DNA from: Caldithrix abyssi DSM 13497
GTDB taxonomy: Bacteria > Calditrichota > Calditrichia > Calditrichales > Calditrichaceae
Assembly: GCF_001886815.1 (NCBI RefSeq)
Contig: NZ_CP018099.1
Coordinates: 2,168,501-2,232,500 of the forward strand
Length of the DNA stretch: 64,000 nt
Direction of reading: 5' to 3'
Made by a program: the position numbers and the translations under genes. Positions 13,732 to 36,724 of the stretch are shown here, piece after piece. The notes beneath the pieces were generated by a model. The model saw nothing but the letters and a program-made list of their open reading frames with translations. It ran no database searches and was not told the origin of the DNA. Within the stretch, counting starts at the first letter, position 1; each line of letters opens with the position of its first letter.

Positions 13732-15444
13732 GGAGGCTGTTGCAAATTCAGTTTGAGTAAAATTCAAAAAATTTGTAAATTCTGGGCGACAGATAAAACA
13801 AGTAATAACAAAGGAATTCCATGAGTTTTATTACTTATAATCGCTCACAAATGAATCTCTTTGGCTATAGTGTGGAAGATTTTGCCAGAGACGATCCAAA
13901 GAGTCGATTTGTAGTGGAGTTGGTTTCGCGCCTTGATTTAAGTGCACTTTATTCCCGTTATAGTTCACAAGGCGGTGATTCTTATGCCCCAGACATGATG
14001 CTTGCCTTATGGTTTTATGCTTATAGTAACGGCATTACCAGCACCCGTAAGCTGGAGGAATTGTGTAAATATGATACGCGCTACATTTATATCACTGGGA
14101 ATCAGCATCCGGATCATAGTACATTAAGTCGTTTTCGCAAGGCACATTTGGATTTATTAGACCAATATTTTGTAGAGATACTTTTAATTGCCCAGGCCGA
14201 AGGCATAAGTAGTTTCAACCAGATAGCCATAGATGGCACGAAAATCAAAGCGCACAGCAGTAAGCGTCATGGCTACACTGAGGATCAATTAGACAAACGT
14301 ATAGAGAAGTTAAGAGCAGAGATCAAGCAATACATGCAGCGCTGTAATTTTGTAGAACAGGGGGCCACGGATGAATTAGATTTAGAAACTCTTCGAGCGG
14401 AGAAAGAACGGCTTGAGCGCTTAGAGAAAGAGATATTAGAACGTAAAGCCCAATTGAAAGAGCGTAAGAAACAGCTCAAATCAGAACATCGTTCAAGACA
14501 TCAAATAAATGTAAAAGAGCCGGATGCCCGCATGATGCCTTCGGTGGATGGGCCGGGTTATAACGCACAATTAGGCGTAGATATGTCGAGTCATTTAATT
14601 GTAGCCCATGAAGTGGTAAGCCAGCCCAACGACCAGGGTCAATTCATACCGATCCAAGAACAAGTAGAGAAGAATCTTGGTTCAGATGATAAGCGATCTT
14701 ACACAGCCGATTCCGGTTATCACAATAGCGCAGACCTAAAAGAATTGGAAGAAAAGCAGATCGATGCCGTAATAGCCGATCCCCAGTTATCCAATCGTTC
14801 GATAAAGGAGACACCGACCTCCAAGGAAGAATTGCAAAAAGAAGAAAGAAAACTAAAACGAAGTGATTTTGTGTATCATGAACAGGGAGATTACTATGAA
14901 TGTCCGGCGGGTAAGAAGCTTTTTCCAGTTGAGAGGAATAGCGAACGGATCGTATATCGTTCCAATGATTGTCAGGACTGTCCCTTAATTAATTTATGCA
15001 TTTCCAGTAAAAAGAAAGTTAAGCAAATCCATCGTTCAGTTAATGAGAGTTATTGCGAACGTATGGCGAAAAAGTTACAAACTTCAGCGGCGCAGGAACG
15101 ACTAAAGAAGCGTTCGGTGACAGTTGAACCTGTTTTTGGTAATTTGAAGCATAATTTAGGCTATCGTGGATTTTCCTTATCTGGTCTTAATAATGTTCGT
15201 AGTGAATTTACGTTAATGTGTATTGGGCATAATATTAATGTTCTATTTAAAAATATGTTAGGGAAACGTTTAGCAGCGTTTATAAAAGCATCACAAGAAA
15301 AAGATGATCTATTAATTTTATTTTCAAAGAATATTTTGGCATTTTTAATTCTATATTTTGCCCAACGTTTAAGAATGAGAAAAAATTATCAATATCGGAG
15401 AATATAAACATTAATTCCTCCCCCCCCCCCATGCAACAGCCTCC
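13732..15444. mobile_element. IS1182-family-like insertion sequence
   Basis: Perfect 13-bp terminal inverted repeats (GGAGGCTGTTGCA at 13732-13744 and its complement at 15432-15444) bracket a single transposase gene. An 11-base C run (15420-15430) abuts the right repeat. The flanks CATCCCACC and GGTGGGACAGATG are inverted relative to each other, so the element lies inside a palindrome. That palindrome appears to belong to a dispersed intergenic repeat seen near 43.7 and 63.2 kb. At most a 2-bp target duplication (CC) can be seen. Confidence 0.85.
13821..15407 (+). CDS. IS1182-family transposase
   Basis: A 528-aa DDE transposase with the N-terminal DUF772-type helical domain (YAPDMMLALWFYAYSNG, then DHSTLSRFRK). 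Catalytic-core elements include IAIDGTKIKAHSSK near residue 136, YTADSGYHNSADL near residue 293 and the C-terminal VEPVFGNLKHNLGYRGF, which supplies the Glu. A coiled-coil insertion lies at residues about 155-225, and a Cys-containing stretch (CPAGKK, CQDCPLINLC) at about 360-395, as in other IS1182 members. The frame is intact and reaches family length, so it may be active. Start at ATG 13821 with an AAAGGA site. Confidence 0.9.
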   Translation: MSFITYNRSQMNLFGYSVEDFARDDPKSRFVVELVSRLDLSALYSRYSSQGGDSYAPDMMLALWFYAYSNGITSTRKLEELCKYDTRYIYITGNQHPDHSTLSRFRKAHLDLLDQYFVEILLIAQAEGISSFNQIAIDGTKIKAHSSKRHGYTEDQLDKRIEKLRAEIKQYMQRCNFVEQGATDELDLETLRAEKERLERLEKEILERKAQLKERKKQLKSEHRSRHQINVKEPDARMMPSVDGPGYNAQLGVDMSSHLIVAHEVVSQPNDQGQFIPIQEQVEKNLGSDDKRSYTADSGYHNSADLKELEEKQIDAVIADPQLSNRSIKETPTSKEELQKEERKLKRSDFVYHEQGDYYECPAGKKLFPVERNSERIVYRSNDCQDCPLINLCISSKKKVKQIHRSVNESYCERMAKKLQTSAAQERLKKRSVTVEPVFGNLKHNLGYRGFSLSGLNNVRSEFTLMCIGHNINVLFKNMLGKRLAAFIKASQEKDDLLILFSKNILAFLILYFAQRLRMRKNYQYRRI

Positions 15445-19718: not shown

Positions 19719-20273
19719 ATGAAATTAACTGTTCAGACAGACCAAGAACTGTGGAACGCCTTTCGACAGGGAAATCCTGAAGCATTGGCTGAGATTTTTA
19801 CAATGAATTATGCCGCATTGTACAACTTTGCTTTTACTATTTGCCATAACGACGAGCTATCTAAAGATTCCATTCAAGAATTATTTACCTATCTCTGGGA
19901 AAAACGAGACAAATTGGCTGAAGTCAAATCTATACGATTATATCTGTTCACTTCTTTGCAGCGGTTACTAATAAAAGAACTAAAAAAAAGCAAAAGTAAA
20001 GAAGAAAAAAATAAGATATATCAGGATGAATTTCCTGATCATGCCTTTTCTGCACAAGATCTCTGCATATTCGAAGAGATCAACGAACACCTCAAACAAA
20101 AGTTAAAATCTGCTTTAGATGAAATACCACAACGGATGCGCGAAGCCTTATATCTCAAAACTTATAACAACTTTTCTTATAAAGAGATCAGTCAAATTAT
20201 GAACATCTCTTCTCAAGTAGCCCGCAATTATGTTTCTGAGGCCCTGCATCGATTGAGAAAAATTCTTTCTTAA
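19719..20273 (+). CDS. ECF RNA polymerase sigma factor (FecI-like, FCB type)
   Basis: A 184-aa sigma-70 family protein with only regions 2 and 4. Region 2 covers residues about 25-90 (LYNFAFTICHNDELSKDSIQELFTYLW), and region 4 residues about 125-183 (LDEIPQRMREALYLKTY, YKEISQIMNISSQVARNYVSEALHRLRK, a clear helix-turn-helix). A FecR gene follows at 20378 and an STN-type TonB receptor at 21491. This is the classical cell-surface signalling arrangement in which ligand-bound receptor releases the sigma factor. Its likely targets are the transport and phosphorylase genes downstream. Confidence 0.9.
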   Translation: MKLTVQTDQELWNAFRQGNPEALAEIFTMNYAALYNFAFTICHNDELSKDSIQELFTYLWEKRDKLAEVKSIRLYLFTSLQRLLIKELKKSKSKEEKNKIYQDEFPDHAFSAQDLCIFEEINEHLKQKLKSALDEIPQRMREALYLKTYNNFSYKEISQIMNISSQVARNYVSEALHRLRKILS

Positions 20274-20377
20274 AAATTAAAAATTTTTCTTTTTGAACAT
20301 TACAAAATCAAAACTTCTGTCTCTATAATAATAAAAGTAAACAAAGGAATGTTCATTTTATTATAGCAGGTAACGTA

Positions 20378-21463
20378 ATGAAATACAAAACCAATGAAAA
20401 ATTAGTAGACGCATTACTTAGCGATGAAAGTTTTCAAAGGTGGCTTTCTGGCAACGGAAGCGAAGAAGATAACGAAAAATGGTCCAGATGGCTTGGCGAA
20501 GGTCCTCAAAATGAAGCGATGTATCGCCAGGCATTAGAACTTTGGCAAGCGGCGCAATTCAAAAAATATCCGTTACCCAACGTACATAGCGAATTAAATA
20601 AACTTTTTAACCGACTAAATATGCAGAACGATCAATGTAAGCCTAAATGCAGCAAGTCTCGTCCCACTATTTTAACTATGAATAGACAACTTTTCTGGAA
20701 ACTGGGGGCGGCTGCTATTTCTGCTGCCGCTGTTCTTCTCATCGTATTTCATTTAAATTTCTCCATTCTAAACTTTTCTTTTGGTGATGAATTTACCACT
20801 GTTACCACAAAATATGGACAGCGAATTACGCTTCATTTAGAAGATGGTTCAAAAATAATTCTTAATAGCAATTCTATCTTAAAGTATCCAAAAAATTTGA
20901 CGCCAGAGACCAAAAGAGAACTATATCTACATGGTGAAGCGTATTTTGAGGTTACCCGGAAACCGGCTGGGCCTCAACACGATTTTACTGTGGTTACCGA
21001 TGAAGGCTTAATTTCTGTCATTGGTACCAGCTTTACAGTTAGTTCCAGAAAACATCAAACAAAGGTTGCTTTGCTTAAAGGCATAGTTAAAGTAATGGCC
21101 AGAGATAAATCGGATAATTTTAAAATTTCTACCAGTATAATAATGAAGGCCGGTCAGTGTTTGCGCTTTACACAAAAAGCCAAAGTACTGAAACCGCAAA
21201 ACAATATTAGCTCTTTGCAGGCATCTTGGTGGAAGGACCAGCTCATATTAAATAATACTTCATTGGAAGAGATCGTTGCTCGTCTTAAAGAAACGTATGG
21301 CGTTGAGGTTGAATTAAAAGACCAGCAGTTATTAAAGAAAACCATCACCGGATCAATTGAAAACAACAGTCTGGATTTCATTATAAAAACCTTATCCAGT
21401 GTATTACAGGTTCCGGTTAGCGTGGAAGGGAATAAGGTAATCTTTGAAAAATCAAATATTTAA
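20378..21463 (+). CDS. FecR family anti-sigma factor / transmembrane signal transducer
   Basis: The 361-aa protein has a cytoplasmic N-terminal domain (FQRWLSGNGSEEDNEKWSRW) that should bind the sigma factor. A single membrane helix lies at residues about 105-130 (LGAAAISAAAVLLIVFHLNF). The periplasmic FecR domain follows (YGQRITLHLEDGSKIILNSNS, then GEAYFEV, VIGTSFTV and VALLKGIVKV). The C-terminal DUF4974-like domain (LEEIVARLKETYGVEVE) resembles the STN fold and probably contacts the receptor's signalling domain. It follows the sigma gene by 104 bp and precedes the receptor by about 27 bp, so the three are likely co-expressed. Confidence 0.9.
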   Translation: MKYKTNEKLVDALLSDESFQRWLSGNGSEEDNEKWSRWLGEGPQNEAMYRQALELWQAAQFKKYPLPNVHSELNKLFNRLNMQNDQCKPKCSKSRPTILTMNRQLFWKLGAAAISAAAVLLIVFHLNFSILNFSFGDEFTTVTTKYGQRITLHLEDGSKIILNSNSILKYPKNLTPETKRELYLHGEAYFEVTRKPAGPQHDFTVVTDEGLISVIGTSFTVSSRKHQTKVALLKGIVKVMARDKSDNFKISTSIIMKAGQCLRFTQKAKVLKPQNNISSLQASWWKDQLILNNTSLEEIVARLKETYGVEVELKDQQLLKKTITGSIENNSLDFIIKTLSSVLQVPVSVEGNKVIFEKSNI

Positions 21464-21490
21464 TTTAATAAAATAGTGCGTTTATACAAT

Positions 21491-24442
21491 ATGCGTCTTT
21501 TAATAACAACGATACTTTGCGGTAAACTTTTGTTTGTTCTGGCAATTTCTCAGGAAATTTCTAAAAACAAACCTTTCATTAAAAGTATGGATGATTCCAT
21601 AGAGTATCAGATTCCTCTGGAAAAAGTTTTTCGGATGTTAGAGAAAAAATATGACGTTTATTTTGTTTATGAAAATCAAATCGTAAATGGTTTAAAGACG
21701 CCGCTAATCAAAGAATTTTCCGGAAATATCTTTAAGGATCTGCAAAATATTTTAAAAAAACATCATCTGCAATACAAGCTTGTGGGTAAAAAAACCTTTG
21801 TAATCATAAAGAAAGCGTTCAGTAAAACGAGCTTTGGTAAGATAAGAGGATTTGTAACAGACAGTGATGGAAATCCCTTACCAGGTGCCGAGGTCATACT
21901 GGTAAATGTTAAGCTGATGGACATTGCCGATAATAAAGGCGCCTATATTTTTGATGAACTTAAAAAAGGCGAATACCTTGTTTCAGCGCAAATGATTGGG
22001 TACAAAGCAAAATCTTTTCTTGTTAAAGTGCCAGCGGGTGGAATTGTAGATAAAAACTTCTTCCTTGAGCCGGATATACTCGATATGGAAGAAATTGTAA
22101 CCGTGGCCTGCCGAAATCCTTTTATGAAATTGGAATCCAGTGTGGCCATAACCACGGCCAATAGCAAACAGATAGCTGAGCGCGCGCCTCAAAGTACGGC
22201 TGAATTGTTGAAAGTTATTCCAGGGTTTTATGTGGAAAGTTCCGGAGGCGAAGTATCCAACAATTTATTTCCTCGTGGAATTCCCCAGGATGGCTCCTAT
22301 CGTTATGTGGCCATGTATGAAGACGGCTTGCCAATTTTTGAAGCTCCGGAATTAGCATTTGCCAATATCGATATTATGATGCGCCTGGATGAAAGTGTGA
22401 AAAGCATGGAAGGCGTACGCGGTGGAACAAGTTCCATTTACGCCAGCAATGCCCCGGGCGGTGTCATTAATTTTATTAGCAAAACCGGCGGCAACAGGCG
22501 CGAAGTAATCATTAAATTATCGGCCGGTACGCACGATTTTAAACGCCTGGATTTTAATTATGGCGGGCCCCTGTCAGAAAATTTTAAGTTTAACGTGGGC
22601 GGTTTTTTCCGGCACAGCCAGGGCGTCCGCTCGGCTCATTTTACGGGCAACAGCGGCGGGCAAATAAAATTAAATATAACCCGCCTTTTTAAAAAAGGCT
22701 ATTTTAGAGTCTATGGAAAATACCTGAACGATAGGAACATCTTCTATTTACCTATTCCTTTGCAAAATCCGAATGACCCCGAATCAATACCCGGCTTAAA
22801 TGCTAATTACGGAACTATGACCAGTGTCCATGCTGCTAAAACTTCCTTCCCCAGCCCTTTTGGGAATATCTACCAGCGTGATATCCGAGATGGTATCCAT
22901 CCCGAATTGATGTCCTTTACCCTTGAATATGTGTACGATTTTGGAAAAGGCTGGAGCATTCAGAACAATTTTCGTGTTATGAAAACAGATATTGATTTTA
23001 ATGCTATTTTCCCTCTGGAAACGCCATTTAACGCCTCATTTTTTGCAGACTCTATTAAACATCTATCTGATAAGCCTGAAATCGCACGTTGGGAGTATCG
23101 GTTTGTCGATAATGGCGCACCGATTAAAAACATATCCAGCTTAAATAACAACGGATTAGTTGCTTTAAATGGATGGTGGACGATCTCGAAACCATTAAAA
23201 AATTTTGTAAACAATTTGCAAATCAATAAAAAATTTGGCGAACACAAAATTAGTTTAGCGGGATATTTCAGTAAATATAGCGCCGGAGATTTTTGGTACT
23301 GGCATAATATCTTAACCGAAGTTAAAGACGCCCCTCGCCTTTTGGACCTGGTCGGGCTAAATGCTGATGGCGAGGTGGTTTATCAAGTAACGGACAACGG
23401 TTTTGAACAGTATGGTAGCTTTTATGTTAATGCTATGAGCCATGCCACTGTTTATTCAACCTATTTTACAGACGAATGGCAGGCTACAAAAAAACTGCGG
23501 CTTGATATGGGCGTACGCCTGGAATCACATCTTTTTAAGGGAAAAGTAGAAAATACCAGAGACGATTATATTATCGGCGATGGCGAAACTGAGGCCGAGC
23601 GAAACGTTATTTTTGGCGATAGCACTTTCCGCTATTATCAGCATAAATTTAATGAATGGGCTTTTTCATTTGGTGGAAATTACAGCATTAATCACCATTT
23701 GGCTTTATATGGACGGCTTAGTCGCGGCTTTAGAACGCCCGATTTTGAACAGTGGATTTTTTCCGAAAACAGGGGGAAATCGCAATATATTTATCAGATA
23801 GAAGGCGGTTTAAAAGTTGCCAGCCCACAATTTTCTTTGTTTAGTTCGGTTTTCTTTAGTCATATAAATAATATCCCCTTTATTGACGAAGTTTTTAAAA
23901 ATGGTCGCATCGTCCATGAAAAGCGCTTTGCAAAAAGCCGAACCATTGGCCTTGAATTTGAAGCCGTATTTATCCCTGCAAGCGGTTTACATTTAAATTT
24001 AATTGGCACAATCCAAGATCCCCGATTGCTGGAATTAATAAGCAACAAAATTGATCCCGAAACCGGAGCGGTTACTTATAAAAATTTAAGCGGCAATCGG
24101 GTACGTCGTATTCCGCAATTTATAATTGACTTCAGGCCATCTTATAGCTACAAGGGGTTTAATATTTTTTACAGTTGGCAGTTCATCGGCGAACGTTTTG
24201 TTGACGATGCCAACACGGCGGTCTTGCCCGGTTATAATCTAATTTCGGCCGGCGCTTCTTATAAGTTTTTTGAAAACAAAATTCGATTGGGAGTCAATAT
24301 CTCGAATTTAACCAACACTCTTGGCTTAACCGAAGGCAATCCACGAATTGAGCAGGAATTTGCCAACCGCCGCCAAAATGTGTTCATGGCAAGACCCATC
24401 CTGGGGCGTTTTGTCAATTTAAGTTTAACTTTAACTTTATAA
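21491..24442 (+). CDS. TonB-dependent transducer receptor with STN and carboxypeptidase-like domains
   Basis: The frame can start at GTG 21476 or ATG 21491; the ATG is preferred, giving 983 aa, although neither has a strong Shine-Dalgarno. After the signal peptide an STN domain covers residues about 35-105 (YQIPLEKVFRMLEKKYDVYFVYEN), the part that signals to FecR. A CarboxypepD_reg-like domain follows (KIRGFVTDSDGNPLPGAEV). Then come the plug (TAELLKVIPGFYVESSGG, LFPRGIP, YEDGLPIF, and APGGVINFISKTGG) and a 22-strand-type barrel. It probably senses and imports the substrate handled by the downstream phosphorylase. There is no SusD-like partner in the window. Confidence 0.88.
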   Translation: MRLLITTILCGKLLFVLAISQEISKNKPFIKSMDDSIEYQIPLEKVFRMLEKKYDVYFVYENQIVNGLKTPLIKEFSGNIFKDLQNILKKHHLQYKLVGKKTFVIIKKAFSKTSFGKIRGFVTDSDGNPLPGAEVILVNVKLMDIADNKGAYIFDELKKGEYLVSAQMIGYKAKSFLVKVPAGGIVDKNFFLEPDILDMEEIVTVACRNPFMKLESSVAITTANSKQIAERAPQSTAELLKVIPGFYVESSGGEVSNNLFPRGIPQDGSYRYVAMYEDGLPIFEAPELAFANIDIMMRLDESVKSMEGVRGGTSSIYASNAPGGVINFISKTGGNRREVIIKLSAGTHDFKRLDFNYGGPLSENFKFNVGGFFRHSQGVRSAHFTGNSGGQIKLNITRLFKKGYFRVYGKYLNDRNIFYLPIPLQNPNDPESIPGLNANYGTMTSVHAAKTSFPSPFGNIYQRDIRDGIHPELMSFTLEYVYDFGKGWSIQNNFRVMKTDIDFNAIFPLETPFNASFFADSIKHLSDKPEIARWEYRFVDNGAPIKNISSLNNNGLVALNGWWTISKPLKNFVNNLQINKKFGEHKISLAGYFSKYSAGDFWYWHNILTEVKDAPRLLDLVGLNADGEVVYQVTDNGFEQYGSFYVNAMSHATVYSTYFTDEWQATKKLRLDMGVRLESHLFKGKVENTRDDYIIGDGETEAERNVIFGDSTFRYYQHKFNEWAFSFGGNYSINHHLALYGRLSRGFRTPDFEQWIFSENRGKSQYIYQIEGGLKVASPQFSLFSSVFFSHINNIPFIDEVFKNGRIVHEKRFAKSRTIGLEFEAVFIPASGLHLNLIGTIQDPRLLELISNKIDPETGAVTYKNLSGNRVRRIPQFIIDFRPSYSYKGFNIFYSWQFIGERFVDDANTAVLPGYNLISAGASYKFFENKIRLGVNISNLTNTLGLTEGNPRIEQEFANRRQNVFMARPILGRFVNLSLTLTL

Positions 24443-24481
24443 TTAATGTAAGTTTAACTAAAAAAGGAGGGGCTATCATCA

Positions 24482-24532
24482 ATGTTTATCTTAAGTTATG
24501 CGTTTCGAAATGATTATGTACAACCAAACTGA
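24482..24532 (+). CDS. Possible 16-residue leader peptide ORF
   Basis: ATG at 24482 follows AAAGGAGG at 24462-24470 and opens a 16-codon frame (MFILSYAFRNDYVQPN) in the leader of the next receptor gene. It ends at TGA 24530-24532. A second tiny frame (24540-24593) starts directly after a GAGGAGG. Both could be chance, and no function is assigned. Confidence 0.25.
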   Translation: MFILSYAFRNDYVQPN

Positions 24533-24643
24533 GGAGGAGATGAAGCCAAGAATAGTTTTTCAATATTATTGTTTCCTAACAAAGCAAAAATAATGTTTGA
24601 TTCGATTGATAGGCTATTTAACTCGAATCAGGATAAACGACGT

Positions 24644-24721
24644 CGCCTGACGTTCCGAAAAGATAAGAAATCATGTTCCCGCCAAAGAACGTGAGATTTC
24701 TTATCCGTCTTCCGCCAGGCG
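24644..24721. repeat. Palindromic hairpin element upstream of a TonB receptor
   Basis: CGCCTG (24644-24649) and CAGGCG (24716-24721) bound a stem that includes the perfect 11-bp pair GATAAGAAATC (24662-24672 region) and GATTTCTTATC (24694-24704 region). In the leader transcript this would form a long hairpin before the receptor's AGGAGG site. It may be a regulatory structure or a small mobile repeat. Confidence 0.6.
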
Positions 24722-24798
24722 GGTCGCTTATCTCTTGGATTGACAACAAGACAACATTTTTTCAAAACGTGACTTGTCATCAACCACAGGAGGAAAAT

Positions 24799-27279
24799 AT
24801 GAAGTTTTTTTATCAATTTCTAATTATTTTATTGGCATCGGCAACTTTGACCAACGCTCAGGGCACAGGAAAAATCGCCGGTTCGGTAACCAGCGAAAAA
24901 GGTCCGATGGTAGGAGTAAATGTTTATCTCGAAAACACCACCATCGGCGCCGCTACTGACGCCAACGGAATGTATTTTATCGATCGTGTTCCTGCCGGGG
25001 ATTATACTCTGGTAGCCAGTTCTGTAGGGTATAAAACGGTTAAAATTAAAATAACCGTAAAAGAAAATGAAACCGTGAAACAAGATATCAAAATGGTGGA
25101 AGACCCCTTACTATTGGACGCGGTAGTTGTTATTGGTACGCCCGGCGGAATAGGGATACGTAAAAAGGACGCCAGCTTTGCCATAAACACTATTGATGCC
25201 ACACAAATTAACCGGTTGTCTCCCAGTAGCACGGCAAGTCTTTTAGACGCAATCCCGGGCGTCTGGTCCGAAAGCTCCGGCGGCGTTGCTGGTGCCAACA
25301 TTTTTGTGCGTGGTTTGCCGTCTTCTGGCGATGCGCCCTTTGTGACCATCTCTATTAACGGAGGTCCCACATACGGAGTGGAAACCCTATCCTTTTTTGA
25401 ACAAAGCTCAATTTTTCGGATCGATGAAACGGTAGCACTAACAGAGGTTACGCGCGGCGGTCCGAATGCCGTTTTTTCTAATGCTGAACCGGGCATGACC
25501 GTAAATTTCAATTTAAGAAAAGGCGGCGAGAAAACCGAAGGACGGTTGAAATATGAAACATCCGACTATTATCTGCAACGTTTTGGCGGCTACATGAGCG
25601 GTAAAATTGCGAAAAATCTTTATTATATGGTTGGCGGTTATGTTAAAACATCTCCCGGAATTAGAAACACACAGTTTAATTCGGAAAATGGCCGACAACT
25701 GACCGTTCAATTAACCAAACTGTTTAAAAGAGGCGCTTTGAATGTTTTTACGCGTTTAACGAATGATTATGGTCAATGGGTATTACCAATGGCGCTTAAT
25801 ACAGGAAATGATCTGGGCACATTTTCACCATTGGGGAATGCCACCCGTTTCCGCACTCTTCAGATTAACGCTCAGGGCGATAGCGCTACGTTTGATTTTG
25901 CTAATGGTCGTGGCTGGAACGGCAGCATAAGTGGACTGAACGCCAACTTTGATCTCGGTGGTGGCTGGACGATCACCGATGTTTTGACCTACACCTCAGG
26001 CGATGCCAATACATTTGGTTTTGTGCCTAATGGTAACCCCATACCCGTTTCTGCGCTGGGTTTGGCTACAGTAAAAACCAGAAGCGGAAAAGTACTGAAA
26101 GGAACGGATTATGTGCAAAATTACGGCCATTGGGTAGTTCTCAAAAATATTCAGTCTATTACAAACGATCTAAGTATTAATAAAGAATGGAAAAATCATA
26201 ATATAACTTTCGGAGTGTATCAGGCGCGCTGGACGGCAAAGGATTTTTGGACTCTGGGTAATCATATACCCGTTGAAAATATCGCCAATGGCGATATCTT
26301 AGACGGTATTCCCGCTGATTCCATTGCAGCGCATGGCGGCGGCGGACCGTGGAATTATGGCTTAAATTCCGCAGGCGATGCCAGAGTATTTGCTGGCTAT
26401 CTGGCTGATTCGTGGAAAGTTATGCCGGCCCTGCGAGTGGACATCGGCGCTCGTTACGAATGGATAGACCTGGAGTACACGCTCGATCATGGCAGTATTC
26501 CCGATGGCATCATCGATAAAACTGTTTCGACTAAAGGGAAAGACTATGCATTTACGGCTGCGGTTAATTACGATCTTTCTCCCGTGCTCGGAACCTTTGT
26601 ACGGTATTCCGACAGTTATCAATTCCCCCATTTTGATATGCTTCGAGAAGGCAAATACAGTATTGATAATAACGGTGATGTTGAAGCCAATGATTTTAAA
26701 CAATACGAACTTGGTTTAAAATATGATTCACAACTTTTCAGCCTGTTTGCCACGGGTTTTATGAATCAGGTTTACGTTTTTGACGGAGATGTGGGCGCAA
26801 AAAGAGAAGCTGCTTTACTTAATACCAGAACGATTGGAATTGAGCTCGACGGTGTGTTTTCAGTGCAAAATTTTATGCTACGCGCTATCGCCACCTATCA
26901 AAAAGGAGAGATCACCGAGGCTGATGTTGCTCCAGAAGTTGTCGGAAACTCCATCTGGCGTCAACCAGACTGGCAGTTCAGAATTGCGCCAAGCTATAAT
27001 CTGGCTTTAGGTAAGCTCAATGCAACTATTTACGGCGCTATTCGCTCGGTTGGAAAACGCTGGGATTCCAGAGATAATGTCTTTCAATTGGATGGATACA
27101 CTAAAATTGATGCAGGTGTAATTGTTTCTACGCCTGGCAATATTTCTTTTCAGGTCTATATCGATAATTTGAACAATTCCGAAGGCTTGACCGAAGGCGA
27201 TCCGCGGGATCCGATGGCAGCCAACGGGCGGCCCATATTTGGCCGTTCAATTCGATTTTCGGTCATTCATGATTTTTAA
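24799..27279 (+). CDS. TonB-dependent receptor (second of the carbohydrate locus)
   Basis: An open frame begins at 24673, but the ATG at 24799 has a perfect AGGAGG upstream and starts the signal peptide (MKFFYQFLIILLASATLTNA), giving 826 aa. There is no STN domain. A CarboxypepD_reg-like domain covers residues about 25-105 (GKIAGSVTSEKGPMVGVNVY). The plug follows (TASLLDAIPGVWSESSGG, IFVRGLPSSGD, then NAEPGMTVNFNLRKGG), and the barrel ends in FSVIHDF. Lacking STN, it is likely a transporter rather than a sensor, perhaps controlled by the sigma/FecR pair upstream. It shares barrel motifs (SEGLTEGDPR against TLGLTEGNPR) with the receptor at 21491, so the two are probably paralogues for similar ligands. 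Confidence 0.87.
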   Translation: MKFFYQFLIILLASATLTNAQGTGKIAGSVTSEKGPMVGVNVYLENTTIGAATDANGMYFIDRVPAGDYTLVASSVGYKTVKIKITVKENETVKQDIKMVEDPLLLDAVVVIGTPGGIGIRKKDASFAINTIDATQINRLSPSSTASLLDAIPGVWSESSGGVAGANIFVRGLPSSGDAPFVTISINGGPTYGVETLSFFEQSSIFRIDETVALTEVTRGGPNAVFSNAEPGMTVNFNLRKGGEKTEGRLKYETSDYYLQRFGGYMSGKIAKNLYYMVGGYVKTSPGIRNTQFNSENGRQLTVQLTKLFKRGALNVFTRLTNDYGQWVLPMALNTGNDLGTFSPLGNATRFRTLQINAQGDSATFDFANGRGWNGSISGLNANFDLGGGWTITDVLTYTSGDANTFGFVPNGNPIPVSALGLATVKTRSGKVLKGTDYVQNYGHWVVLKNIQSITNDLSINKEWKNHNITFGVYQARWTAKDFWTLGNHIPVENIANGDILDGIPADSIAAHGGGGPWNYGLNSAGDARVFAGYLADSWKVMPALRVDIGARYEWIDLEYTLDHGSIPDGIIDKTVSTKGKDYAFTAAVNYDLSPVLGTFVRYSDSYQFPHFDMLREGKYSIDNNGDVEANDFKQYELGLKYDSQLFSLFATGFMNQVYVFDGDVGAKREAALLNTRTIGIELDGVFSVQNFMLRAIATYQKGEITEADVAPEVVGNSIWRQPDWQFRIAPSYNLALGKLNATIYGAIRSVGKRWDSRDNVFQLDGYTKIDAGVIVSTPGNISFQVYIDNLNNSEGLTEGDPRDPMAANGRPIFGRSIRFSVIHDF

Positions 27280-27372
27280 ATCAAAAAACGTAAAACATAC
27301 TCCTGCCAGGCATGAGTAATTATGCAAGCGTATAAACCAGGCAGGTGTTTGTAAATGTTATTAAAAAACACT

Positions 27373-27407
27373 GGGATGCTGGGGTCGTTTTACGGCCCCG
27401 GTATCTT
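27373..27407 (+). terminator. Strong GC-rich hairpin after the receptor gene
   Basis: GGGATGCTGGGGTCG (27373-27387) pairs over 15 positions, with some G-U, with CGGCCCCGGTATCTT (27393-27407) around a 5-base loop. An A-run precedes it, but the T-tract after it is weak. It could terminate the receptor message or attenuate the symporter operon. Confidence 0.5.
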
Positions 27408-27499
27408 TGATTCAAATAATAATAAAAGGCTGTTTGATTAAAATTAAAAAAACTTCGCTACCATTTTTACCTAATTAAATCCATAATTGAAGGAAGTTT

Positions 27500-29386
27500 A
27501 TGATTGATTTACTAATTGTATTAGCATTTGTAATCTATTCAATTTCATCGGGATTTATAGCAAAAAAGAAAGCTTCTCAAAACCTAAACGAGTATTTTTT
27601 AGCGGGCAGGACGATAAGCGGATGGCGGGCTGGATTTAGCATGGCAGCAACACAATTTGCTGCGGATACGCCTTTACTGGTTACCGGTTTAATTGCCACC
27701 AGCGGCATTTTTATGCTCTGGCGACTGTGGATATATGGGATTGCCTTTTTGATGTTGGGATTCATTTTTTCCATTGGTTGGCGCCGCGCAGGGGTTTTAA
27801 CAGATGCCGAATTAACAGAGGTTCGGTACAGCGGAAAAGGCGTTTTACCGTTAAGAGTGGTAAAAGCAATCTACTACGGGACAGTGATCAATTGTGTGGT
27901 AATGGCCATGGTGTTAGTAGCCGCTGTCCGGATTGCAGAAGTTTTTTTACCCTGGCATTTGTGGCTTCCATCAGGAATTTACAATTTTTTCTTGAACATT
28001 ACTACGGCATCGGGCATTTCGTTGGGGAGCAGCGTTGCAAAGCTGGATCCTATTGTTGCCACCACCAATAACATTATTAGTATTTTAGTAATCGTCGGTT
28101 TTACCACGCTTTACTCAACTACGGGGGGCTTGCGCAGCGTGATCTCTACCGATGTCGTGCAGTTTAGCCTGGCAATGGTCGGAACTTTAATATACGCCAT
28201 CGAGGTTGTACGACATATTGGTGGAATTGGCGCCATTGTAGATAAAGTGGTTGCCCTTTATGGCGTTGACATGGCTGATAAAATGCTATCTTTTGCGCCA
28301 ACCGGCGGCGAGATGTTGCTTCCTTTTTTAATAATAATCGGTTTACAGTGGTTTTTTCAGATGAATAGCGACGGAACCGGTTACCTGGCGCAGCGTTCAA
28401 TGGCTTGTTCCACAGACCGCGACGCACGCATTGCGGCGCTGGTTTTTTCGTGGATGCAAATTTTTTTAAGAAGTTTAATCTGGCTTATCATCGGCGTAAG
28501 TTTACTCGTCTTTTATCCGTTTACACCTGCAGATGCGGCCGGAAGTAATTTTGCCGCCACTCGCGAAATTCTTTTTGTTACCGGAATTAATGACATCCTT
28601 CCCATTGGTATTAGAGGCATTATGCTTACCGCCATGTTGGCCGCGCTGGCTTCTACCATTGATACCCATTTAAATTGGGGTGCCAGTTATTGGAGCAACG
28701 ATATTTACCAGCGCCTGATTTGTAACAAATGGCTTAAACGGCAGCCGAAAAACAGCGAACTGGTCTTTGCCGCCCGCTTGTCTAATATTTTTATTTTGCT
28801 CATTGCGCTTACTATTATGGCAAACTTGAGCTCTATTCAAACGGCCTGGTTTATTTCTCTGCTTTTCGGTGCGGGAATGGGATCGGTATTGGTACTACGA
28901 TGGCTGTGGGAGCGCATTAATCTGTTCTCCGAACTGGCCGCCATTATAGTTTCTTTAATTGTGGCGCCGATTCTCCTTGTGGTAACAGACGTTGAGTGGA
29001 TTCGGCTGGGAACCATGGCTCTGGTTTCCACCACAACGGCCATACTGGTAACTTTCTTTACGCCCAAAACCGATCCATCTGTTTTAGTGGCTTTTTACAA
29101 AAAAACACGCCCCGTGGGGTTCTGGCGTAAAACGGCTGTACTGGTGGGCGACAATGCCACAGTGCCTGTTAAAAAGTTATTTAAAGAAATTAAAATAACT
29201 TTTTTTGCCGCCGCCTCATTATTTTTGATGTTAATCGGAGTCGGAAAATTGCTGATTCCCACGCCAGATACGTCGCTATTTTTCCCTTTACTCTATGTGG
29301 TTATCGCGCTGGCTCTTACGCCCATCTGGTGGCGTGAAGCGACAAGTGACCCTGCGGATACCATCAAAAAAGAAGAAAATGTGTAA
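27500..29386 (+). CDS. Sodium:solute symporter family transporter
   Basis: A 628-aa polytopic protein with about 13-14 hydrophobic segments. SSS-family features include the N-terminal NEYFLAGRTISGWRAGFSMAATQFAADTP, a TTLYSTTGGLRSVISTDVVQF motif near residue 205 and LAALASTIDTHLNWGASYWSNDIY near residue 385. It most resembles sugar-transporting members. It starts the operon with the phosphorylase fusion (44 bp downstream). The likely role is to bring the periplasmic oligosaccharide, delivered by the TonB receptors, across the inner membrane with sodium. The substrate itself is not readable. Confidence 0.88.
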   Translation: MIDLLIVLAFVIYSISSGFIAKKKASQNLNEYFLAGRTISGWRAGFSMAATQFAADTPLLVTGLIATSGIFMLWRLWIYGIAFLMLGFIFSIGWRRAGVLTDAELTEVRYSGKGVLPLRVVKAIYYGTVINCVVMAMVLVAAVRIAEVFLPWHLWLPSGIYNFFLNITTASGISLGSSVAKLDPIVATTNNIISILVIVGFTTLYSTTGGLRSVISTDVVQFSLAMVGTLIYAIEVVRHIGGIGAIVDKVVALYGVDMADKMLSFAPTGGEMLLPFLIIIGLQWFFQMNSDGTGYLAQRSMACSTDRDARIAALVFSWMQIFLRSLIWLIIGVSLLVFYPFTPADAAGSNFAATREILFVTGINDILPIGIRGIMLTAMLAALASTIDTHLNWGASYWSNDIYQRLICNKWLKRQPKNSELVFAARLSNIFILLIALTIMANLSSIQTAWFISLLFGAGMGSVLVLRWLWERINLFSELAAIIVSLIVAPILLVVTDVEWIRLGTMALVSTTTAILVTFFTPKTDPSVLVAFYKKTRPVGFWRKTAVLVGDNATVPVKKLFKEIKITFFAAASLFLMLIGVGKLLIPTPDTSLFFPLLYVVIALALTPIWWREATSDPADTIKKEENV

Positions 29387-29430
29387 ATAATGGCTTTTGA
29401 CTTGAACTTTAGTCTGGAGGTAGTGCATCC

Positions 29431-32400
29431 ATGCCCGAATTTAAATTTGATGCCGTTGTTTTTGATCTTGACGGTGTTATTACACAAACCGCTTCTGTGC
29501 ATAGCGCCGCATGGAAGCAAATGTTTGACGAATTTCTAAGAGAGTATGCGGAACAAAGCGGTGAGCCGTTCCGTGAATTTACCCATAACAACGATTATTT
29601 ACCTTTTGTTGACGGTAAACCGCGCTTTGATGGCGTCGCTGCTTTTCTAAAATCACGCAATATCGATTTGCCCTTTGGCGATCCGCAAGATGATCCCGGG
29701 AAAAATACCATATGCGGCCTGGGGAATCGCAAAAACGAAATTTTTAATCGGCTGATTGACGAAGGCAATCTGGTAATTTTTGATTCAACCGTAGATTTTA
29801 TTAAAGAACTATTAAAAAACGGCGTTAAAGTCGGCGTGGCTTCATCAAGCAAAAATTGTGAAAAGATATTAAAAGCCGCCGGACTAATTGACTTTTTTGA
29901 AACCATTGTGGACGGATTGGTGTCAGCCCGGCTCGGTCTAAAAGGCAAACCGCATCCAGATATCTTTAAAAAGGCCTGCGATAATATGGGCGTTGATTAC
30001 CACAAAGCCATTATTGTTGAAGATGCTGTATCGGGCGTGCAAGCCGGGCAAAACGGACAATTTGGTCTGGTTGTGGGCGTGGCCCGCGAAAATAATGAAA
30101 TGGAATTAAGATTAAATGGCGCCGATATTGTAGTGAGCGATTTGGCGGAAATCTCTTTAAACGATTTAAATAACTGGTTTACCACTGGCTTACAAAACGA
30201 TCAATGGACGCTTACGTACTTCAACTACGATCCTGAGAAAGAAGGCACACGCGAAGCTTTACATACTGTTGGCAATGGTTATATGGGCACTCGCGGCGCG
30301 CTGGAAGAAACGAAAGCCAATGGCATAAACTACCCGGGAACTTATCTGGCCGGTTTATATAATCGCTTAACCTCCATAGTAAGCGGCAGAGAAGTGCAGA
30401 ATGAAGATTTTGTGAATTGTCCTAACTGGTTGCCGCTTACTTTTAAAATCGCCAATGGCCAGTGGCTCGATTTAAACAAAGTTGAAATTATAGTATTTGA
30501 ACGACGACTGGATTTTCGCGACGGTTCGCTTTACCGAAAAGTGATTGTAAAAGACAACAAAGGACGAGAAACCCTGATCCAGTCAGTGCGTTTTATCAGC
30601 ATGGCTAAACCGCACCTCGCTGCGCTAAAATACACCATCACTCCTCTTAATTACAATTCCGATATTACCATCCGCTCCGAACTGGACGGGCAGGTGATTA
30701 ACGGCGGCGTAAAACGATATAGTCAGTTAAATTCAAAACATTGGGAAACGATTGATCAGGGAGGGGAGAAGGAAAAGAGTTTTTTGGTTGTACGCACCAA
30801 TCAATCCAAAATAAAATTGGCTGTTGCCGCGCGCCTTTTCATTAAAATCAATGGACAACCAGTTAACTCACCAGTTGAAATTACAACCGATCCTGGCTCT
30901 GTAAAATCGACCCTACAGATTAAAGGCAAAAAAAATACGCCTCTTACCGTAGAGAAAATTGTTGCCATTTATACCAGTAAAGAAGAAGATCATCCAAAAT
31001 TGTCTGCGGAAAATGAAATCAATCAGGTAAATAGCTTTGAGGAACTTTACAATGAAAGTAAAAAAGCCTGGTCAAAAATATGGAAAAAAATCGATATCCA
31101 ATTAGAAGGGCAGCGACTGACCCAGAAATTGGTCAGATTGAATCTTTATCATTTAATGATTACGGCCTCTCCACATAATGCTCAAATAGACGCCGGCATA
31201 CCCGCCCGGGGATTACACGGTGAAGCCTACCGTGGGCACATTTTTTGGGACGAGCTTTTTATTTTGCCCATCTATTTTATGCACTTCCCGCGAACTGCCA
31301 GATCGGTATTAATGTACCGATATCGGCGACTGGATCAGGCACGCGCTTACGCCGCAGAGCATGGTTATCAAGGGGCCATGTTCCCCTGGCAAAGCGGTAG
31401 CGATGGCAGAGAAGAAACACAGACATTGCATCTTAATCCTTTATCCGGAAAATGGGATGATGATTACAGCCGTCTGCAGCGTCATGTTTCTCTCGCAATT
31501 GCCTATAATATTTTCAATTATTATCAATTTACGGGCGATCTTAAATTCTTAAGCGACTACGGCGCAGAAATGTTTCTTGAAATCTGCCGGTTCTGGGCAA
31601 GCAAAGCAGATTTCGAATCAAAATCTGGACGTTACAACATTGACGGAGTTATGGGGCCTGATGAATATCACGAAGCATATCCCGGCGCAAACTCGGGCGG
31701 CCTTAAGAACAATAGTTACACCAATATTATGGTACTATGGGCTATTGATCGGGCCTTTAATATTCTTGATTTGCTGCCGACTGAAGATAAAATGAAACTG
31801 TTCAAAAAGATTGACCTGAATGAAAAAGAGTTGGATGAGTGGCGTAACATTAAAAATCATTTATCCATTCCTCTTTCTCGCGAAAATATTTTAGAACAAT
31901 TTGAGGGATTTTTTGACCTTAAAGAAATAGATCTAAAGGAATACGCCAGAAAATACCGTAATATCAGCCGTATGGATCGCATTCTTAAGGCCGAAGGGAA
32001 AAATCCTAATGACTATAAAGTAATTAAACAGGCCGATACGTTAATGACGTTTTATAATTTACACGAAAACGAAATTCATCGTTTACTTATCCAGGCCGGG
32101 TTTATGCCATCTGAGCAGCTGTTGAAAAAGAATTTCGACTATTACATTAAGTACACTTCGCATGGCTCTACACTGAGTAAATTGGTGCATTCTCGAATTG
32201 CATTCCAGGCGGGATATGAATCTTTAAGCTACAATTATTTTATGGAATCACTGAAAAGTGATTTTCACGATGTACAGGGGGGCACCACCAAAGAAGGTAT
32301 TCATACCGGCGTTATGGCTGGGTCGGTTTTGCTGATCCTGAAAAATTACGCCGGTCTGCATTTTAAAGATGATAAAATTTATCTTGAGCCGAATTTACCT

Positions 32401-32580
32401 GCAGGTTGGCGCGGCATTAGCTTTTGGGTACGCTATCAAAAGCAAGAGTACCATATTAAGATAACACATAAAAAATTGAAAATCACAAAAACATCTCCGG
32501 AAACCAAAATTGGCGCAGTTTATATAAAGAAAAATAAAATTCACTTTGGTGACAATAAGTATGTTGAAATTGAACTGTAG
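29431..32580 (+). CDS. Bifunctional beta-phosphoglucomutase / GH65 glycoside phosphorylase fusion
   Basis: A 1049-aa two-enzyme protein. Residues 1 to about 248 are a HAD-type beta-phosphoglucomutase: nucleophile region VVFDLDGVITQ (Asp12, Asp14), ASSSKN, GKPHPDIF and IVEDAVSGVQAG. Residues about 255-1049 are a family 65 enzyme: VGNGYMGTRGALEE near 288, general acid Glu745 in MGPDEYHE and the phosphate-binding HGSTLS at 911-916. The HGSTLS motif argues for phosphorolysis rather than hydrolysis. The predicted chain is alpha-glucoside plus phosphate to beta-glucose 1-phosphate, then to glucose 6-phosphate, in one polypeptide. Maltose, trehalose, kojibiose or another glucoside are all possible. 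Start has CTGGAGG ten bases upstream. Confidence 0.9.
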   Translation: MPEFKFDAVVFDLDGVITQTASVHSAAWKQMFDEFLREYAEQSGEPFREFTHNNDYLPFVDGKPRFDGVAAFLKSRNIDLPFGDPQDDPGKNTICGLGNRKNEIFNRLIDEGNLVIFDSTVDFIKELLKNGVKVGVASSSKNCEKILKAAGLIDFFETIVDGLVSARLGLKGKPHPDIFKKACDNMGVDYHKAIIVEDAVSGVQAGQNGQFGLVVGVARENNEMELRLNGADIVVSDLAEISLNDLNNWFTTGLQNDQWTLTYFNYDPEKEGTREALHTVGNGYMGTRGALEETKANGINYPGTYLAGLYNRLTSIVSGREVQNEDFVNCPNWLPLTFKIANGQWLDLNKVEIIVFERRLDFRDGSLYRKVIVKDNKGRETLIQSVRFISMAKPHLAALKYTITPLNYNSDITIRSELDGQVINGGVKRYSQLNSKHWETIDQGGEKEKSFLVVRTNQSKIKLAVAARLFIKINGQPVNSPVEITTDPGSVKSTLQIKGKKNTPLTVEKIVAIYTSKEEDHPKLSAENEINQVNSFEELYNESKKAWSKIWKKIDIQLEGQRLTQKLVRLNLYHLMITASPHNAQIDAGIPARGLHGEAYRGHIFWDELFILPIYFMHFPRTARSVLMYRYRRLDQARAYAAEHGYQGAMFPWQSGSDGREETQTLHLNPLSGKWDDDYSRLQRHVSLAIAYNIFNYYQFTGDLKFLSDYGAEMFLEICRFWASKADFESKSGRYNIDGVMGPDEYHEAYPGANSGGLKNNSYTNIMVLWAIDRAFNILDLLPTEDKMKLFKKIDLNEKELDEWRNIKNHLSIPLSRENILEQFEGFFDLKEIDLKEYARKYRNISRMDRILKAEGKNPNDYKVIKQADTLMTFYNLHENEIHRLLIQAGFMPSEQLLKKNFDYYIKYTSHGSTLSKLVHSRIAFQAGYESLSYNYFMESLKSDFHDVQGGTTKEGIHTGVMAGSVLLILKNYAGLHFKDDKIYLEPNLPAGWRGISFWVRYQKQEYHIKITHKKLKITKTSPETKIGAVYIKKNKIHFGDNKYVEIEL

Positions 32581-32594
32581 AGGAGAAAACGTAA

Positions 32595-33233
32595 ATGTTA
32601 GAAGACGTTTTGTTGTTAAAGGACATGCACTATAAGGCGGCAGAGCAAATACTGCAAAGACTATTACCTTTAAACTCCAATCGAACTGTGATTGGTATTA
32701 GCGGTGAATCAGGAGCAGGCAAATCCGAATTGGCACACGTTCTGGGACGAAAAATTAGACAACACGGCAAATTAGCCAAAATTTTACATATTGATAATTA
32801 TTATAAAATCCCTCCACAAGAAAAGACGGCCTGGCGTAAAAAACATGGAGTGGATAAGATTGGTCTTAATGAAATCAATTGGGAATTGATCAATAAAAAT
32901 ATTCGTGAATTTAAAGAAGGTAAAAAGGCGAAAATGCCCTGTGTTGATTTACTGACAGACCTAACCGATGAACTAATCACCGATTTTAAACCTATCGATT
33001 ACTTGATTGTTGAAGGGCTTTACTCTTTAAAAGCTGACGTCGATTTGCGTATTTTTATTACCTTAACCTATCACGACACCAAAAAGGCGCAATTATTACG
33101 AGGAAAGGAACCGCAAGACGAGTTTCGACTTCAGGTATTGGAACAAGAGCACAAAGTGGTTCAATCGCTGCGCCCGCTGGCTGATTTAATTGTAACGAAT
33201 GACTACACGGTGATCGAAGCAAAACAAGAATGA
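32595..33233 (+). CDS. Uridine kinase-like P-loop kinase
   Basis: A 212-aa P-loop kinase with Walker A GESGAGKS at residues 37-44. A uridine kinase/phosphoribulokinase-like segment (ILHIDNYYKIPPQ) follows, with a Walker-B-like DYLIVEGLYSL near residue 137 and a lid rich in Arg/Lys. It lies 14 bp after the fusion gene behind a GAGGAG site, so it is the last gene of the operon. Its position suggests it phosphorylates the sugar released by phosphorolysis rather than acting on uridine, but this is only inference from context. Relatives with sugar-kinase roles exist next to GH65 genes. Confidence 0.75.
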   Translation: MLEDVLLLKDMHYKAAEQILQRLLPLNSNRTVIGISGESGAGKSELAHVLGRKIRQHGKLAKILHIDNYYKIPPQEKTAWRKKHGVDKIGLNEINWELINKNIREFKEGKKAKMPCVDLLTDLTDELITDFKPIDYLIVEGLYSLKADVDLRIFITLTYHDTKKAQLLRGKEPQDEFRLQVLEQEHKVVQSLRPLADLIVTNDYTVIEAKQE

Positions 33234-34845: not shown

Positions 34846-36724
34846 AGTTTGACAGTTGTATGGAACATAATTCCTTTATTATTATTAAGTTAGTTTAATT
34901 TCATTTTCGTTAAGTTGTCACTACAAAGATAAAAGCGTTGGCTTGCTGCTGCCTATCTCCTGAAATATTTCCAATTGTTCGCCATGCACTCTGGATAATC
35001 CTTTACGACGTCTCCCTTCATTTTCCCATTCTACAACCACGACTCGACGCAGGCTCTCCATAGCACGCTGCCAACTTAATTTTATGCCACTCAAACGCTT
35101 CTCAAACAATACCGCCATCTGGAATGCAAGAAAACATACCATCACATGAGCCCTGATACGCTTCTCTGTCCAATGAAAATTGGGACGTAAATTCAAACTA
35201 TGCTTTAATTCGTAAAAACCATGCTCCACATATTTTAAATCTTTATAGCGCGCTATGAGTTCTGATTTACTCAGGTCATGAGCATTGCTTATCACTATAA
35301 ACCAACCGTCGCTCTTTTCTTCTTCTGATAATACCTCATCTTGCTTATGAATCTCTATCGTATCTTCTGTTAATTCAACATTAAAGAAACGACTTAAACG
35401 TTTTCTTGATAATACACTCTTTATTTGATGATATTTATCTTCTGTGTTTATTCCCTTTTTCTTAATCTCTTCTGACAGCTCTAAAAATTCATTAATACGA
35501 TTGATGCGATTTTTATAGCGCTTTAATGCCGTAGCGGCATTGTAACTGGCCACATAACGAAGTTTTATCTTTTCCTTTTTACCATCTTTTGACTTGATTT
35601 CACGCTCCGTTAGGCGCTCATAGATCGTCTCACCAGTCGCCTCTTTATGCGCATTGGCTTCTTTTATAACCGATTTGGCATCCTTGCTCTGACGAACACT
35701 CTCTCCAAGAATAAACTCATAACCTTGTTGGATTAAATGCCAGAGATTGTCATTGCTTAATAAACCTTTGTCTGCCACCAGCTGGATATCTTTTACCTTA
35801 AATCGCCTGCGAATATCATTGAGCATCTCTTGCAAGGTAGAGCGATCAGCCTTATTGCCAGGGAAGACGTAATGGGCTATAGGAATACCATCTCCGGTCA
35901 TCACTACGCCAATTACGATCTGTTCTCTATCCCCGCGGTGGTCACGACTATAACCAAACTGACGAATATCGCCTTCTACCAATGAGTTTTCGGCTTCAAA
36001 GTAGCTTGATGTTAAATCATAAAAACAAACCTTTAGATCCTGATTAAACAGATCTAGTAAACGATTAGCAAGTTGGGTTTCAATCTTTTCTTTATGAGCT
36101 ATTAGAAAATCCATCGCTCTTAAAAGATACTCATAACGAATGTCGTCTTTGTTGATACCCGGAATATAAACGGTTTCTAACCAGGTGAGTAGTTTTAGTT
36201 TGGAAGAAGGATCATCCAGGCGGTTAAATATCAGACTTTTTAAATGAGCTTCAAGATCAAACTTTATTCCGCTTTTTTCCTTTTGCCTGGCAATAATCTG
36301 GCTCATTTTAAGCTCTTTCCATAAATGGACAAGCGCCCAGATTTGACCGAAGGCCTTGACATTATCAATATTGCTATCTAAGTCCTGTAAAGTTAACCCC
36401 TTAGCCCTTAAAAGTCCGTTGATAAGCGTGTCTACGTCTTTTTTGATGAATTTGTCGGTAGGGCCTAAATGCAGCAAGATTCGATGGCGTACTTTTCCAT
36501 TTGAGTCTCTGTAGGACTCAGCGATTTGTAAAGTCTCATGGACTTTGTTATTTCTTTTGGATCGACTTACCTTAACAAACATAGAATGAATATAATAATA
36601 AAACGATTTGATAGCAAATAAAAAAAGCACGCCTGCATAGACTACAAAGAAATTGAAACAGAGAAACTTAATTATATGTTTTTTTTGATTTGGCTTTGAA
36701 AAATTTGGCGTTAACTGTCAAACT
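34846..36724. mobile_element. IS1634-family-like insertion sequence
   Basis: Terminal inverted repeats AGTTTGACAGTT (34846-34857) and AACTGTCAAACT (36713-36724) flank one transposase gene. No clear target duplication was seen by eye. The element lies between the DUF6132 gene and the DUF1858 gene, which share orientation and context, so it has probably split a former operon. Confidence 0.8.
34921..36582 (-). CDS. IS1634-family transposase (IS4 superfamily)
   Basis: The frame is open from 36630, but the Met at 36582 (MFVKVSRSKRNNKVHET) fits the family start, giving 553 aa. Catalytic landmarks are VCFYDLTSSYFE near residue 190, IQLVADKGLLSNDNL near 270 and the C-terminal YKDLKYVEHGFYELKHSLNLRP, followed by FHWTEKRIRAHV. 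The reading frame is intact and close to the usual family length, so the element may still move. Confidence 0.88.
   Translation of the reverse strand: MFVKVSRSKRNNKVHETLQIAESYRDSNGKVRHRILLHLGPTDKFIKKDVDTLINGLLRAKGLTLQDLDSNIDNVKAFGQIWALVHLWKELKMSQIIARQKEKSGIKFDLEAHLKSLIFNRLDDPSSKLKLLTWLETVYIPGINKDDIRYEYLLRAMDFLIAHKEKIETQLANRLLDLFNQDLKVCFYDLTSSYFEAENSLVEGDIRQFGYSRDHRGDREQIVIGVVMTGDGIPIAHYVFPGNKADRSTLQEMLNDIRRRFKVKDIQLVADKGLLSNDNLWHLIQQGYEFILGESVRQSKDAKSVIKEANAHKEATGETIYERLTEREIKSKDGKKEKIKLRYVASYNAATALKRYKNRINRINEFLELSEEIKKKGINTEDKYHQIKSVLSRKRLSRFFNVELTEDTIEIHKQDEVLSEEEKSDGWFIVISNAHDLSKSELIARYKDLKYVEHGFYELKHSLNLRPNFHWTEKRIRAHVMVCFLAFQMAVLFEKRLSGIKLSWQRAMESLRRVVVVEWENEGRRRKGLSRVHGEQLEIFQEIGSSKPTLLSL

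Follow-up and report, generated by a model that had tools for sequence, protein, structure and literature searches.

A 64,000-nucleotide stretch of the genome of Caldithrix abyssi DSM 13497 (NCBI RefSeq assembly GCF_001886815.1, contig NZ_CP018099.1, positions 2,168,501 to 2,232,500 of the forward strand), referred to here as the window, carries seven open reading frames (ORFs) at positions 19719-33233, all on the plus strand. They probably form a regulated locus, lacking SusD, for the import of trehalose, its phosphorylation by a uridine-kinase-like enzyme and the cleavage of the resulting trehalose 6-phosphate (T6P) by means of phosphate, a reading whose probability is estimated at approximately 0.77. 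It is based on the gene content, the conserved linkage between the kinase and phosphorylase genes, and the absence of the usual sources of T6P from the genome.

In the proposed pathway, a TonB-dependent receptor (receptor 1), a FecR-type anti-sigma factor and an extracytoplasmic function (ECF) sigma factor would sense the sugar and switch the genes on. A second TonB-dependent receptor (receptor 2) would move trehalose across the outer membrane without SusD, and a sodium symporter would move it, still unphosphorylated, across the inner membrane. The uridine-kinase-like enzyme would then convert trehalose and ATP into T6P, and a fused enzyme would use phosphate to cleave T6P into glucose 6-phosphate and beta-glucose 1-phosphate, the latter being turned into a second glucose 6-phosphate. 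We infer in this scheme the substrate and product of the kinase, the substrate of the transporters, the sensing step and the co-regulation of the genes. A preliminary description of the window had called the phosphorolysis ATP-saving, with which the expected stoichiometry agrees, as one ATP per trehalose would yield two glucose 6-phosphates, compared with two ATP after hydrolysis.

The phosphorylase and the source of its substrate

The enzymes of the locus are encoded by the following features:

29431..30180, plus strand: beta-phosphoglucomutase domain of the fusion protein (TIGR02009 157.5 bits, cut-off 153.35; PDB 8h5s)
30181..32580, plus strand: GH65 domain of the fusion protein, T6P phosphorylase (Glyco_hydro_65m 419 bits)
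32595..33233, plus strand: P-loop kinase, PRK/uridine-kinase superfamily, with a predicted role as ATP-dependent trehalose 6-kinase (PRK, PF00485, 48.7 bits, cut-off 22)

The mutase domain belongs to a family that converts beta-glucose 1-phosphate into glucose 6-phosphate. The GH65 domain is the only one in the C. abyssi genome, which was searched as a single contig of 4,978,541 bases, and it has both the fold and the catalytic residues of its family, with D744-E745 and the SHGSTLS motif conserved. Alignment to CsKP (3wiq) and the family alignment place its specificity motif, DQGQDE, at D326, Q654, G656, Q664, D678 and E855, equivalent to positions 64, 392, 394, 402, 416 and 585 in CsKP numbering. 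A C. abyssi GH65 protein, CaGP (APF18594.1; locus tag Cabys_1845, PMC8950772), assigned to GH65 subgroup 22 (PMC8537180, PMC8950772), was expressed by De Beul et al. in 2021; it was predicted from DQGQDE to be a T6P phosphorylase and, assayed in vitro in the synthetic direction, formed T6P from beta-glucose 1-phosphate and glucose 6-phosphate (PMC8537180). Given the single GH65 in the genome, the origin in Calditrichota and the identical six-residue motif, the GH65 of the window fusion and CaGP are very probably the same protein; T6P phosphorylase activity has thus been shown in vitro by others for the C. abyssi protein taken here as that of the window. In the CaGP paper the enzyme was assayed on its own, and the text consulted does not take up its fusion to the mutase, the neighboring kinase or the locus. 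The closest solved chain to the fusion protein is 9lb6, deposited as a trehalose-6-phosphate hydrolase (550 bits), compared with 385 bits for kojibiose phosphorylase. The CaGP assay, the motif match, the single GH65 and this closest chain together make T6P, rather than a free disaccharide, the intracellular substrate. Maltose, kojibiose, nigerose and free trehalose, the substrates suggested in the preliminary description, do not fit the assay and the motif and were set aside.

The usual T6P-forming systems are OtsA and the trehalose phosphotransferase system (PTS). Profile searches of the C. abyssi genome detected no GT20 (OtsA), no trehalose phosphatase (OtsB, PF02358) and no trehalose-type PTS EIIC (GPTS EIIC, PF02378), and control genomes gave matches in each of these searches. 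With both families absent, OtsA and the PTS are ruled out as suppliers in this genome, and T6P must have another source. Symporters of the sodium:solute symporter (SSF) family do not phosphorylate their cargo, and therefore a kinase remains, the gene following the phosphorylase being one.

A kinase family linked to the phosphorylase

A search with the fused enzyme as query yielded 80 loci, divided into class 1, in which the mutase is fused or adjacent to GH65, and class 2, in which the mutase carries an extra domain. The kinase stands beside the phosphorylase in 48 of the 51 class 1 loci with enough flanking sequence, the exceptions being L095, L101 and, from Arthrobacter, L123. Class 1 loci come from Bacteroidota, Chloroflexota, Calditrichota, Spirochaetota, Actinomycetota and archaeal metagenome-assembled genomes; several loci are metagenome-assembled, so that their assignment may be wrong, but the pair is seen in records of isolates as well (Perlabentimonas, Odoribacter). 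None of the 19 class 2 loci has the kinase. Genome-wide searches, which scored few candidates per genome and so give soft absences, detected no family kinase in Sinomicrobium or Arthrobacter and, in Cyclobacterium, nothing beyond a match of 31 bits. The extra domain of class 2, 270 residues in the longer homologs, was considered as a fused kinase; it is a trehalose phosphatase (PF02358, 150-200 bits, in all six tested), and that candidate was rejected. Kinase and phosphatase are thus nearly mutually exclusive as partners of the phosphorylase, whose DQGQDE motif is present in 41/48 class 1 and 15/19 class 2 proteins. In class 2 (L119, L120, L122, L124, L125, L128-L131, L133-L138, L140-L142, L146), the mutase-trehalose phosphatase lies beside, or is fused with, a GH65 of T6P-phosphorylase type, and such loci are predicted to make trehalose from two glucose 6-phosphates without a nucleotide sugar.

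The same linkage is visible within one order. Among 393 Bacteroidales genomes, 75 kinase copies reach 285 bits or more with the kinase profile. Of these, 63 lie no more than 4 kb from the gene for the fused enzyme and in the same orientation, the median gap being 58 bases, and the phosphorylase is present in each of the 72 genomes that have a copy at or above this cut-off. The association has a Fisher p of about 8e-63, which is descriptive only, as the cut-off was set post hoc and the genomes are related. With all clades counted, the family occurs in 91 of the 393 genomes. Next to class 1 phosphorylases, a divergent OtsA-OtsB fusion is found in 17 loci (by clustering, with a representative confirmed) and non-phosphorylating ATP-binding cassette (ABC) permeases of MalF/MalG type in four (representatives confirmed); these neighbors, like the Calditrichota symporter, are in keeping with trehalose being taken up or stored in unphosphorylated form.

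The preliminary description had called the last gene uridine-kinase-like, which holds for the superfamily, as both the PF00485 domain and the fold place it there, and does not extend to an ordinary uridine kinase. The AlphaFold model of the kinase (predicted local distance difference test score, 90) has uridine-cytidine kinases as its nearest solved folds (Foldseek 3e-11 to 1ufq, TM-score about 0.65), and its closest solved relatives are of the same kind, which would suit a nucleoside kinase outside the sugar pathway. Nevertheless, that assignment is highly improbable and was set aside, since the protein reaches 52.4 bits against TIGR00235 (uridine kinase), whose curated cut-off is 220.3, a true udk (291.7 bits) is encoded elsewhere in the genome, and the gene is linked to the phosphorylase across phyla. 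Although the family shares with the genome's own udk the P-loop residues and D67, other invariant residues of the family, such as E38, E93, Y143, E185 and H186, differ from udk.

Phylogenetic analysis places the window kinase and the phosphorylase neighbors in clade A (55 rows, support 98/99), with clade B (19 rows, support 93/77) as its sister and about a dozen alignment positions, N68, C116, L142, K171 and L192 among them, telling the two apart. Clade B and related divergent copies adjoin a sucrose-phosphate-synthase (SPS)-like GT4 or a GH13_18 sucrose phosphorylase. The kinase lies directly 5' of GH13_18 in L203:2285-4392, L204:7156-9425, L079:12813-15157 and L084:6031-8180, and in L203 and L204 the order is TonB receptor, kinase and GH13_18, followed by a major facilitator superfamily (MFS) gene; these four are predicted to be sucrose 6-kinase loci. 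In L187-L193 and L195-L201, from many Bacteroidales, the clade B kinase stands beside an SPS/MshA-like GT4, divergent from prmC. A further subclade (L205:7464-8123, L194:7413-8048, and tandem copies in L090, L091, L100, L108 and L144) is found either paired in tandem with a kinase of trehalose type or, without such a partner, next to GH13 genes, with N68 mostly replaced by D. Relatives were found in plasmids only as distant places, such as L213:5092-6579 on the Gemmatirosa plasmid NZ_CP007130.1 (34-36% identity), whose neighbors read as sugar-use genes including SusC/SusD-like and MFS genes, and none were found in viral contigs.

A precedent is available in RgSK of Ruminococcus gnavus (residues 724-935 of CCA61959.1), which has been modelled on uridine kinase, phosphorylates sucrose, and is encoded with and works together with a sucrose-6F-phosphate phosphorylase (PMC7688924, PMC6521584). 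The placement of clade B beside GH13_18 mirrors this pairing of RgSK with RgSPP and would suit a family of disaccharide kinases. Based on the linkage to the phosphorylase, the absent T6P sources, the exclusion with the phosphatase and the RgSK precedent, the window kinase is predicted to be an ATP-dependent trehalose 6-kinase. The open-licence papers searched contained only generic mentions of a trehalose kinase.

Two other roles for the enzymes have been weighed against this prediction. The kinase might be a glucokinase or general hexose kinase, with the phosphorylase also using free trehalose in vivo and the released glucose requiring phosphorylation, and a monosaccharide kinase is indeed given as the usual partner of neutral-disaccharide phosphorylases in the legend of Fig. 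4 of PMC4336185. This appears unlikely, as a T6P phosphorylase yields glucose 6-phosphate instead of glucose, the sister clade pairs with GH13_18, RgSK as a proven enzyme of the same fold phosphorylates the disaccharide itself, and L079 and L084 have, next to the family kinase, a second one of ROK type (read from sequence). Slightly less likely still is that the locus makes trehalose, the phosphorylase running in reverse from glucose 6-phosphate and beta-glucose 1-phosphate with the kinase in a side role. The synthetic direction of the CaGP assay and the suitability of the class 2 mutase-phosphatase fusion for making trehalose speak for such a role, as does the absence of trehalose from the sugars supporting growth of C. 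abyssi, whereas the genome encodes no PF02358 phosphatase to finish the synthesis, the genes accompany outer- and inner-membrane importers, and kinase and phosphatase partners hardly ever coincide.

Several points weigh against trehalose import and phosphorylation. Trehalose has been tried as a growth substrate for C. abyssi and is not one of the four sugars on which growth was reported, which could be explained by uptake as a compatible solute or by lack of induction. T6P might come from some other source, and another sugar kinase, for example a glucokinase, could show the same linkage. The kinship of the family to RgSK is argued from the described uridine-kinase fold of the latter and its gene neighbor. 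Eight Bacteroidales genomes have the phosphorylase and no detected family kinase, absences that are soft because few candidates were scored per genome. In Chloroflexota, the trehalose-type kinase of L073:13236-15349 and L126:9451-11616 also adjoins an SPS-like GT4, and L126 additionally has an OtsB-like gene (read from sequence).

Gene content and unity of the locus

All seven genes given in the preliminary description are present on one strand, and each family was matched in Pfam/NCBIfam profile searches. The five genes preceding the enzymes are as follows:

19719..20273, plus strand: ECF sigma factor (Sigma70_r4_2 43 bits, Sigma70_r2 28 bits)
20378..21463, plus strand: FecR-type anti-sigma factor (FecR 64 bits, FecR_C 53 bits)
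21476..24442, plus strand: TonB-dependent receptor 1, GTG start, N-terminal STN/FecR_C-like extension, candidate sensor-receptor (barrel 89.9 bits, plug 51.6 bits)
24673..27279, plus strand: TonB-dependent receptor 2, candidate outer-membrane importer (barrel 78.9 bits, plug 37.8 bits)
27500..29386, plus strand: SSF symporter, candidate inner-membrane trehalose transporter (SSF 121 bits)

The sigma factor also scores 94.9 bits against TIGR02985, under the cut-off of that model. Both receptors contain a CarboxypepD_reg domain besides barrel and plug. Receptor 1 had been described as STN-type; its identity as a receptor stands, while the STN domain itself is a weak match when the N-terminus is searched alone (18.2 bits, cut-off 28.4), with FecR_C at 24.8 (cut-off 24.4). 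The true start of receptor 2 is probably the ATG at 24799, ahead of a signal-peptide-like stretch. The nearest solved chains to the symporter are SGLT1/2, vSGLT and one putative sodium:solute symporter. As expected from the preliminary description, the annotated ORFs of the window from 13.8 to 40 kb include neither a SusD-like protein nor a secreted hydrolase; receptor 2 scores 80 bits against TIGR04056 (SusC/RagA; cut-off 368), and the SusC/SusD pair that defines a Sus-type polysaccharide utilisation locus is lacking.

The preliminary description treated the seven genes as one unit. The alternative is two neighboring but separate units, one in which ECF, FecR and receptor serve a different ligand and one, a trehalose operon, made up of symporter, phosphorylase and kinase; this arrangement can coexist with the trehalose-kinase prediction. 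ECF-FecR-receptor sets serve many ligands, gaps of 230 and 220 bases flank receptor 2, and the kinase-phosphorylase pair accompanies other transporters elsewhere. Comparison within Calditrichota makes this alternative rather unlikely. The symporter and phosphorylase genes are adjacent in 5/5 Calditrichota genomes carrying this GH65, with SSF directly before the mutase-GH65 gene in G002, G012, G022 and G035, and a receptor 2 homolog precedes SSF in G002 (90% identity) and G035 (69%), giving the order receptor 2, symporter and phosphorylase in both. G025 and G026 represent two species from a different family of Calditrichota, and their genes run in the order ECF, FecR, receptor 1, receptor, a second SSF, SPS-like GT4, divergent family kinase, SSF and TreT trehalose synthase, with identities to the window of 43-45% for ECF, 34-35% for FecR, 54-55% for receptor 1 (after FecR) and 72% for SSF. 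The sensor and symporter parts thus stay together although the enzymes change, which favors one functional unit. The preliminary description had named a lack of co-occurrence of homologous gene sets as refuting; the sets do co-occur, and its picture of a SusD-less, sigma/anti-sigma-linked locus for disaccharide import and phosphorolysis agrees with both gene content and co-occurrence.

None of the genes around the locus (cytochrome b561, Lnb-like protein, superoxide dismutase, thioredoxin, transposases, ClpB-like) shows a visible tie to sugar use. Transposase genes lie on both sides of the region (window 13821-15407 and 34921-36630), and the GC content is lower (0.35-0.39) around 18-22 kb; the region between the transposases is possibly a mobile or acquired segment. 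A promoter scan was uninformative (34 found, 39.9 by chance).

Comparison with known systems

The phosphorylase is already known, while the locus as a pathway and the role of the kinase appear undescribed in the open-licence literature searched. For T6P phosphorylases whose hosts have neither OtsA nor a trehalose PTS, we know of no substrate supply so far, a gap that a trehalose kinase, if real, would close. It would also give a function to a widespread uridine-kinase-like gene and alter the predicted use of trehalose in several phyla. More broadly, and with less assurance, we lean towards the view that ATP-dependent disaccharide 6-kinases, forming a so far unnamed family with trehalose and sucrose clades, replace the PTS for disaccharides that enter unphosphorylated, and that the kinase or phosphatase partner of the mutase-phosphorylase core sets its direction, towards breakdown or towards trehalose synthesis free of nucleotide sugars.

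The trehalose pathway of Lactococcus lactis (TrePP and beta-phosphoglucomutase) has the same two enzyme steps after T6P as the C. abyssi locus. In L. lactis, T6P arises by PTS uptake, whereas the C. abyssi genome is without GPTS EIIC and a P-loop kinase is predicted to perform the phosphorylation instead. The RgAgaSK/RgSPP system of R. gnavus resembles the C. abyssi model in that an ATP-dependent disaccharide kinase of uridine-kinase fold feeds a neighboring phospho-disaccharide phosphorylase (PMC7688924, PMC6521584), and both involve a non-phosphorylating transporter. It differs in its sugar, sucrose, in the fusion of the kinase to a GH36 alpha-galactosidase, in its GH13_18 phosphorylase and ABC transporter, and in the absence of an outer membrane. 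Sus-type loci of Bacteroidota likewise combine a TonB receptor, ECF/FecR-type control, a transporter and intracellular enzymes in one locus, but the C. abyssi locus lacks SusD, any surface glycan-binding protein and any secreted hydrolase, and a small sugar is expected as its substrate, illustrating how a SusD-less receptor locus can serve such a sugar.

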